From an uncultured Candidatus Saccharibacteria bacterium (lineage in GTDB: Bacteria > Patescibacteriota > Saccharimonadia > Saccharimonadales > Saccharimonadaceae), in assembly GCA_946414345.1 (NCBI GenBank), contig CAMKOB010000009.1:1-41464 (forward strand): 41,464 bases of DNA, written 5' to 3'. This document shows positions 3,715-18,842 of the stretch, in pieces. Both the position numbers and the translations under genes were made by a program. Each line of letters begins with the position of its first letter. Positions within the stretch are counted from its first letter, which is position 1. The notes below the pieces were generated by a model that was given only the letters and a program-made list of their open reading frames with translations, was not told where the DNA came from and ran no database searches.

Positions 3715-4458
3715 CTATAGTTCAATCAAAGCAACCAATGCCCTATGATCCGATATTGCAGCGTCAATTAAATTAAAACTCTTACATTTCAACTCATTTG
3801 TAATTAAAATATGGTCACATGCCACATCCTTTACGAAACGTACATTTCTCAACGTAGTTTTCACTTGATTTATTGCAGTTAAATCTTGCATAAAACCAAG
3901 TTCTCGCATAGCAGGTGATTCCGAGATCACATTTAAGTCTCCGCACATTACAGTTGGGCAATACCCATCCTTAATAAACTCTGCTACTTTATGCATACAT
4001 TCCACCGACGTCTTGTCCCCAAGGGGGTCCTTCAACCAATAACCATGATAGTTTACAACAGCTAACCCATTGTTTAGTATAACTTTCTGGACAGTATAAT
4101 ACTGGTTCTTCGCTTTTTGAAGATCCGAAAAACTCTTAATCACTATATATTCGCCTATTACGATCTTCTCTTTCGTGTCAACAAAAGGAATTTTACTCAA
4201 GATTGCATTTCCTATTTCAAATTGGCCGCTACCATCCAACACTTTCGTTCCGTAGTTAGAGGTTTTAAAGACATAATCAAACGCAGCCATCCTTACAATT
4301 TTATCTACCGTATCAACATATAGCTCTAAATAGTCGTTACAATCATCACTCCAAATCGCCTCCTGGATACAAACTACATCGTAATCGCCCTCCTTAATAA
4401 AACGAACCAATCCGTCTTTTATTCTACCGGTCCAACCATTAATTTGTAATACTTTCAT
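3715..4458 (-). CDS. Endonuclease/exonuclease/phosphatase (EEP) fold hydrolase
   Basis: 247 aa. Signatures of the EEP/DNase I-like superfamily are in order: CIQEA with the metal-binding Glu (about 30-34), the NYHGYW segment in the middle, GDLNV (catalytic Asp/Asn, about 173-177), and a C-terminal SDHRALVA with the catalytic Asp-His. All main metal and catalytic residues appear present. No signal peptide is seen, so it is probably cytoplasmic. The family covers AP endonucleases, DNases, phosphodiesterases and lipid phosphatases, and the substrate cannot be told here. It follows an anchored orphan gene by 6 nt and probably shares its mRNA. Confidence 0.85.
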   Translation of the reverse strand: MKVLQINGWTGRIKDGLVRFIKEGDYDVVCIQEAIWSDDCNDYLELYVDTVDKIVRMAAFDYVFKTSNYGTKVLDGSGQFEIGNAILSKIPFVDTKEKIVIGEYIVIKSFSDLQKAKNQYYTVQKVILNNGLAVVNYHGYWLKDPLGDKTSVECMHKVAEFIKDGYCPTVMCGDLNVISESPAMRELGFMQDLTAINQVKTTLRNVRFVKDVACDHILITNELKCKSFNLIDAAISDHRALVALIEL

Positions 4459-17232: not shown

Positions 17233-18411
17233 ATGAAATATCTTGCCGTTCTCGGTCGCGAACCTCAGATTTCTCTTGCCGAACTCTCGGCTCTTTATTC
17301 TGACGTCAAACAAACATCACCAAATCTTGCCACTTTTACAACAGAAGAAGTAAGCATTAATCGTCTTGGCGGCTCACTTAAGATCGCCCAAGCAATTGAA
17401 GCCACACCATTAGAGTTCCTCCGCAATTTGCCGGAAGGTAAAATCACTCTCGGAGTATCAGATTACTCTAAAAATGCCAGCAGAAGATCAGCCACCACTG
17501 AAGCTTTAAAACTAAAAAAAATACTCGTCCGACACGGTCGCTCTGTTCGCGTAGTTGAGAACAAAGACGCTTTTCTTTCTACTGCCACATCACTTCATAA
17601 TGGACTATCAGGCAAAAATGATCGAAAAATCGAACTGGTCAAATCTAATTCCAACTGGTACAAAGTAGTTGGCATACAAGATATCGATGCCTACGCCAAA
17701 CGCGACCAAGCACGCCCCGCCCGCGACGCTCGCGTTGGTATGCTTCCACCTAAACTCGCCCAAATTCTCATCAATCTTTGCGGCCCTCTGCCAAAAGGTT
17801 CTCGCATTCTCGACCCATTCTGTGGCACCGGCGTTGTTTTACAAGAAGCTCTTCTCATGGGTTACCAAGTCTACGGCACCGACCTCAGCGAAAGAATGAT
17901 CGACTACAGTACGCGCAATATTGAGTGGATTTCAAAAAGTGCTTTAGAGGAAACTTTCGCAGGCCGCTGCCGAGAACGTAGGGAGCCGAGCCCTGTAAAG
18001 ACAGGCGCGAGGACTCCCGGTTCCGAAAAAGCACTTTTTGAAATCTGTGTCGGCGATGCCACATCCTTTAAATGGCAACCACCAATCGATGCCGTCGCTT
18101 GCGAAAGCTACCTAGGCCAACCAATGTCACAGATTCCCTCCGACTTAAAGCTGAAAGAGCAACAACAGGAATGTGGCAACATTATTTTAGGCTTTCTAAA
18201 AAACTTATCTACCCAAATCAAATCTAACACCCCAGTTGTCATCGCTATTCCTGCTTGGCTACGCCAAAACGCTACCTATGAGCGCTTAAAAATACTTGAC
18301 GATATCGAAGATATGGGGTATAATGTTAGTAAGTCATCTCGTGATGGTCTACTTTATCATCGTGAAAAACAGATTGTCGCAAGAGATATAATAATATTGA
18401 GGAAAAATTAA
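17233..18411 (+). CDS. Trm11-like RNA methyltransferase carrying a palindromic insert
   Basis: 392 aa. The N-terminal 150 residues look like the THUMP-type RNA-binding part. The Rossmann methyltransferase has motif I DPFCGTG (about 195-201), YGTDLS (acidic ribose binder), and a motif IV region ACESYLGQP in place of the usual N/DPPY. The family methylates guanines in tRNA, e.g. Trm11/TrmG10-type G10; the exact base is inferred only. Residues about 232-273 are encoded by a GC-rich palindrome (17928-18055) and have no place in the fold: an in-frame insertion. Leaderless start (TATAAT 17221-17226). Its stop abuts the rpmA ATG. Confidence 0.8.
   Translation: MKYLAVLGREPQISLAELSALYSDVKQTSPNLATFTTEEVSINRLGGSLKIAQAIEATPLEFLRNLPEGKITLGVSDYSKNASRRSATTEALKLKKILVRHGRSVRVVENKDAFLSTATSLHNGLSGKNDRKIELVKSNSNWYKVVGIQDIDAYAKRDQARPARDARVGMLPPKLAQILINLCGPLPKGSRILDPFCGTGVVLQEALLMGYQVYGTDLSERMIDYSTRNIEWISKSALEETFAGRCRERREPSPVKTGARTPGSEKALFEICVGDATSFKWQPPIDAVACESYLGQPMSQIPSDLKLKEQQQECGNIILGFLKNLSTQIKSNTPVVIAIPAWLRQNATYERLKILDDIEDMGYNVSKSSRDGLLYHREKQIVARDIIILRKN
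17928..18055. repeat. In-frame palindromic insertion in the Trm11-like gene
   Basis: The outer arms are perfect over 18 bp: GATTTCAAAAAGTGCTTT at 17928-17945 and its reverse complement at 18037-18054. Inside are nested GC-rich hairpins, e.g. GGGAG with CTCCC around CCTGT-AAAG-ACAGG, and GCAG-GCCG-CTGC. The reading frame is kept across the whole element. It recalls Rickettsia palindromic elements in logic, not visibly in sequence. Confidence 0.8.
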
Positions 18412-18687: not shown

Positions 18688-18842
18688 AGTATAGTATCGG
18701 TGAACTTAAGCAAGCCCAAGAAACAAAAAAATAATTTCACAGATTTGAATCCTGTACTGCAATACAGGTGAAAATCTATCTGAAATTATTTTTTGTTTCC
18801 TGGTGCGAAGCGACGACAGCCACCAACACTATACTTTTTTTA
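18688..18842. terminator. Large composite palindrome/terminator between rpmA and tyrS
   Basis: The outer stem AGTATAGT (18688-18695) pairs with ACTATACT (18828-18835), followed by seven T (plus strand). GGTG/CACC comes next. An inner long stem (about 18720-18744 with 18778-18800) has one bulge, and the tip is CCTGTA-CTGCAA-TACAGG. It probably terminates both convergent genes, but is far larger than a normal terminator, as if a second palindrome had been nested in its loop. Confidence 0.7.

Follow-up and report, generated by a model that had tools for sequence, protein, structure and literature searches.

The palindrome described here lies in a window of 41,464 nucleotides, contig CAMKOB010000009.1 of an uncultured Candidatus Saccharibacteria bacterium, where it sits in frame in a gene for a tRNA methyltransferase. 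The host reading frame encodes 392 amino acids and runs open straight through the palindrome. The protein scores above the cut-off of UPF0020 (Pfam) and matches TIGR01177 with an E value of 2e-16, at a score under the family cut-off; the gene is matched in 58 of 60 relatives. On these profile matches the gene is taken to be a methyltransferase of the UPF0020/TIGR01177 type, and the in-frame position within a Trm11-like gene, proposed in an earlier note on this DNA, is borne out. The Pfam SAM-binding matches stop near residue 230, immediately ahead of the insert. The structure predicted for the host protein has low confidence (pLDDT 57, and below 50 in the insert region), so that exposure of the insert at the protein surface is only suggested. 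The features are as follows:

17233 to 18411, forward strand: host gene, a Trm11/TIGR01177-like tRNA methyltransferase (reading frame, profile matches), carrying the insert in frame
17926 to 18047, forward strand: family-1 palindromic element including its arms (folds; covariance model match at 17939 to 18034, E 1.5e-14)
17926 to 17945, forward strand: left arm, locus-specific, paired with 18028 to 18047; its sequence tracks the locus, not the core
17947 to 18026, forward strand: core, with tandem GA/GA mismatches at 17947-17948 and 18025-18026 as its limits
17955 to 17975, forward strand: core hairpin 1 (RNA fold)
17981 to 18018, forward strand: core hairpin 2 (RNA fold), with the conserved motif GAGCCC(C/T)GT-loop-AC(A/G)GGCGCGA
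18028 to 18047, forward strand: right arm, paired with the left arm; its outer half consists of host codons
23413 to 23503 (approximate), forward strand: second-family palindromic insert, in frame in murB (pattern search; alignment of copies)

Positions 17928-17945 (GATTTCAAAAAGTGCTTT) and 18028-18045 are exact reverse complements and form a perfect inverted repeat of 18 bp. Counting G-U pairs, the helix 17926-17945/18028-18047 is 20 bp long and the whole element measures 122 nt. Both inner hairpins are closed by pairing of 17949-17951 with 18022-18024. The RNA fold of 17920-18062 reaches -63.0 kcal/mol against -40.6 +- 3.6 for shuffled sequences (z -6.3), with none of 200 dinucleotide shuffles as good as the native sequence. 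A perfect 18-bp outer repeat enclosing inner hairpins, as first noticed, is thus confirmed by exact complementarity and by folding; the right-hand end had been placed at 18055, some 8-10 nt too far, since the helix stops at 18047. The outer half of the right arm encodes the host residues F-E-I within a conserved F-x-V...GDA motif. No Rfam covariance model matched the element at its gathering score or at E <= 1.

Copies of the element were sought with a structured covariance model of 94 positions, built from 53 copies. It matches in 159 of the 174 genomes of the genus, many of which hold 15-24 or more copies (copies were scored up to 24 per genome, so that the top figure means at least 24). The window genome has five matches, four of them beyond the Trm11-like gene: gyrA, lepA (antisense), the dihydrouridine synthase gene dus (antisense) and a weak match, also antisense, in a diacylglycerol-kinase-like gene, these gene names coming from reading of the translations. 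A plain BLAST/DNA search of the same genome found no second full copy, only arm-length matches at chance level. The search for further copies by covariance, suggested at the outset, thus brought the count to five for the window genome and into the hundreds for the genus as a whole. Of 36 sampled genomes of the genus, 24 contain the hairpin-2 motif CCCGTAACGACGGG; among 24 other genera of the order none has it, while an exact 21-base stretch of the core, among the GTDB matches listed, is confined to Ca. Saccharibacteria, mostly from ruminant guts. The element family is dispersed across most species of one gut Saccharibacteria genus. It is apparently undescribed; in the open literature searched there was no report of such elements in Saccharibacteria or other Patescibacteria. 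Carriage by phage or plasmid was rejected, since the viral contigs and plasmids searched gave no match to the element.

The copies are built alike. From the outside inward come the arms (about 20 nt), a tandem GA/GA mismatch, a short stem, and a three-way junction bearing hairpins 1 and 2; there are further GA/GA mismatches. The mismatch after the arms was recognised in 86 of about 155 copies. Core length is mostly 73-77 nt, and the element as a whole spans about 115-125 nt. This fold is conserved across copies with compensating changes. There are 342 double (compensating) changes, compared with 132 +- 10 in shuffles; in 30 of 35 base pairs both partners vary, and shifting the register of the proposed pairing gives a far poorer result in every case. 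The covariation of the outer helix is favoured by the selection of aligned copies for a paired arm. RNAalifold, run on the first alignment, recovered hairpin 2 alone because the arms do not align.

Of the 29 same-genus orthologues of the Trm11-like gene that were read first, roughly half show a short linker in place of the insert, and the remainder carry a longer, mostly structured insert of some kind. The comparison with orthologues thus gives no family-wide conservation, and the insert is, as the alignments read, not part of the ancestral protein. Inserts at this site use different reading frames, yielding SPVTTGA or EPRNDGR about one hairpin. One genome (G127) carries the same core subtype as the window genome and G110 at the same codon site, in inverted orientation. 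Unrelated palindromes without the family-1 core motif also occupy the Trm11 codon site (L017, L018, L020, L022) and, at other sites, the same codons (L100, L137, L168).

Reading of 160 copies placed 97 in sense and 28 in antisense orientation within open reading frames (125 in all) and 35 between genes. The genes hit are usually essential ones, and their reading frame stays intact. Wherever an intragenic copy could be set against an orthologous site without a core, the length change was a multiple of three (45 of 45). Open sense frames number 1.29 in intragenic sense copies, compared with 0.77 in intergenic copies and 0.77 in shuffled sequences. Insertion that is tolerated at permissive linkers is the best reading of this pattern. 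The idea of a class of palindromic invader that tolerates in-frame sites accordingly stands; selection for such sites, the other half of the proposal, is not proven.

A second palindromic family is represented in the window by the insert in murB, which had been singled out earlier and proves to have copies of its own. Its relatives lie in a penicillin-binding protein gene of the window genome (G000:C11:34614-34628, L193) and in ileS of another (G035:C4, L191), and all three share one frame, RVxxxEGAPH...DVGE...RQDPL. In ileS a family-1 copy is also present, some 700 bp away from that of family 2, and a further family-2 copy was seen by eye in mnmA (L168), where relatives carry family 1. The shape of family 2 resembles a bulged hairpin, unlike the three-way junction of family 1. 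Just past rpmA, at 18714-18806, lies an intergenic hairpin with A/T-rich arms of about 20 bp and an inner hairpin flanked by GA/GA; it does not match the family-1 covariance model and is possibly a third palindrome type.

Core and arms behave differently. Between identical cores in different genes, arm similarity is near random (0.57, against a background of 0.48), whereas at orthologous sites with similar cores it reaches 0.81-0.86 (7 pairs); a comparison of all pairs, which are not independent, gives a weaker trend in the same direction, the arms tracking the site. Near-identical cores make up 16% of pairs within one genome, 5% at orthologous sites and 2% elsewhere, again from non-independent pairs. 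Orthologous arms can differ by a compensating change, GTGC/GCAC in the window genome against ACAC/GTGT in G110, and the cores of two loci (L142 and L153) are identical but oppositely oriented. At mnmA and trmD, neither arm has a counterpart in the sites that lack the insert. Complementarity also extends past 20 nt into the flanks (4.46 against 3.54 +- 0.08). In some cases (Trm11, ileS) an arm coincides with conserved codons of the host gene, something that simple cut-in of an element leaves unexplained. Length differences show a peak at 75 nt; its source is largely Trm11 and valS-like sites, and precise insertion of the core is therefore not claimed as general. The check for a target duplication, which had been suggested for the element ends, found none: shared direct repeats in the outer flanks measure 3.47, against 3.48 +- 0.07 by chance.

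One locus (L051, at about 1390-1640 and about 2062-2312) contains two copies of family 1 at a spacing of 672 bp; their arms are identical and their flanks unrelated. This exceptional pair is the clearest case of movement of a whole element together with its arms, and demonstrates that arms can travel. Elsewhere (L149, about 4160-4380) a partial left half, consisting of the arm and hairpin 1, lies in tandem directly upstream of a complete copy.

The complementarity of the arms is compatible with fast drift under a pairing constraint, with remaking at insertion, or with exchange of the core inside standing arms. A two-part cassette, in which the core alone is mobile and each site makes or remakes its own complementary arms, is conceivable, though we would not bet on it; in that case the core would enter, leave and flip within a locus-specific hairpin, perhaps by recombination of a DNA or RNA hairpin involving no known transposase.

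Candidate mobilising enzymes were sought in the genus. The Y1/RAYT transposase (PF01797) occurs in one of 30 genus genomes and not in the window genome (G000); its absence from 29 of 30 excludes RAYT/REP as a general partner in the genus. Reverse transcriptases are found in 19 of 30 genus genomes compared with 1 of 20 other genera of the order. Those of the genus (L249, L250, L251 and others) are of mixed defence-like types (DRT-like, one of them a clear Drt2), and show no link to copy number (11.5 vs 9.4 copies, p 0.32). A reverse transcriptase was rejected as mobiliser on these two grounds.

REP/BIME repeats are mostly extragenic and are mobilised by RAYT (Y1) transposases. The present elements resemble them as short structured palindromes at many sites, but the Y1 transposase is nearly absent from this genus. 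Copies of the Correia/NEMIS, RUP and ERIC MITEs have terminal repeats in common and often target duplications. Here, in contrast, arms are near-random between copies with identical cores, that is, there are no shared terminal inverted repeats, and no target-site duplication is seen. What these bacterial MITEs share with the present elements is that they are small, structured and non-autonomous; some of them also contain open frames (PMC2229807). Coding potential is likewise described for palindromic repeats of the archaeon Methanocaldococcus jannaschii (Suyama 2005, as summarised in PMC2229807), with which the comparison is one of description.

The closest parallel is with the palindromic elements of Rickettsia (RPE) and Wolbachia, dispersed stem-loop repeats of 100-150 bp in reduced, host-dependent bacteria, which lie in frame in conserved genes, form several families and recur at the same sites (PMC2229807, PMC3767692, PMC10969869). 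The family-1 element is similarly a dispersed, multicopy palindrome with a long stem-loop (122 nt, z -6.3), and it too lies in frame in conserved protein genes and is missing from some orthologues (45/45; 125/160 in reading frames). The present elements differ in that they occur in another phylum and have a core built as a three-way junction in which tandem GA mismatches recur; their arms are hypervariable and specific to the locus, and a single core can be found at one site in either orientation. Five insert peptides searched against NCBIfam gave no match up to E 10, and from this and the listing of exact-core matches the two series are apparently unrelated. In kind, then, the elements match the coding palindromes of Rickettsia and Wolbachia, while phylum, anatomy and, as far as tested, peptide sequence differ.

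The insert is probably a copy of a non-autonomous, hairpin-forming mobile element, similar to the RPE, that has spread in one gut Ca. Saccharibacteria genus. Direct support comes from the dispersed family, the sites with and without insert, the in-frame bias and the conserved structure, as well as from the presence of one core in many unrelated genes and from a site at which one core subtype occurs in either orientation. The structured core (about 75-80 nt, two hairpins, tandem GA mismatches) would be copied to new sites by an enzyme acting in trans, presumably by way of a single-stranded DNA or an RNA hairpin. Within genes, a copy would survive only if it adds a multiple of three nucleotides, has one open frame and falls where the protein can accommodate an added linker. 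The methyltransferase gene would be translated through the hairpin, adding about 40 residues past the SAM-binding part, and the addition may be neutral to the protein. The best-supported account is that of selfish elements which are mobilised in trans and whose copies are then sieved by selection, as has been proposed for the RPE. Against it stand the lack of a linked enzyme, of a target duplication and of a strain pair above 90% identity that differs by a recent insertion and would fix the insertion ends and the source of the arms, as well as the arms over conserved codons and the bias towards the sense strand.

That bias (97:28, p 4e-10) arises although the antisense strand has more open frames, and it hints at a role at the RNA level, which pure selfishness would not require. 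Together with the strong covariation, and with a core that evolves at a lower rate than the arms when orthologous sites are compared, it could indicate a functional RNA or linker, the sense-strand fold being kept for a benefit to the mRNA or protein (pausing, stability or RNase III processing). Such a function is unlikely to account for the family, given that presence at any single site differs among species, that of 160 copies about 35 fall between genes and 28 run antisense, and that in other species these codon sites are taken by unrelated palindromes.

Local growth of palindromes, by template switching at small hairpins that copies one flank onto the other with the core as an occasional passenger, would account for arms that are locus-specific yet still complementary and for the pairing that continues into the flanks. 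It would also fit the Trm11 right arm, which consists of the host F-x-V codons, and the left arm in another genome (G135), which mirrors those codons. Improbable as a whole, this process is unable to yield one core in unrelated genes, and the two new arms at mnmA and trmD speak against it. An intron-like or bypassed segment, cut from the RNA or skipped by ribosomes, might be suspected from a long closing stem that joins the ends and from the location in conserved genes, but is scarcely credible because a removed segment would need neither a length in frame (45 of 45) nor frames that are open in genic and not in intergenic copies.

Protein-coding palindromes have so far been known mainly from Rickettsia and Wolbachia. 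The mobile elements proposed here would add a second, apparently unrelated and far larger series, one that covers 174 species and hundreds of copies, with occupied and empty sites and with both orientations. The hosts are again members of a reduced, host-dependent phylum, which points to small genomes as recurrent hosts of such invaders, and the question of mobility now becomes testable through comparison of close strains. On this reading, many Saccharibacterial enzymes, gyrA and aminoacyl-tRNA synthetases included, would carry linkers of about 25-40 residues that are of mobile-element origin.
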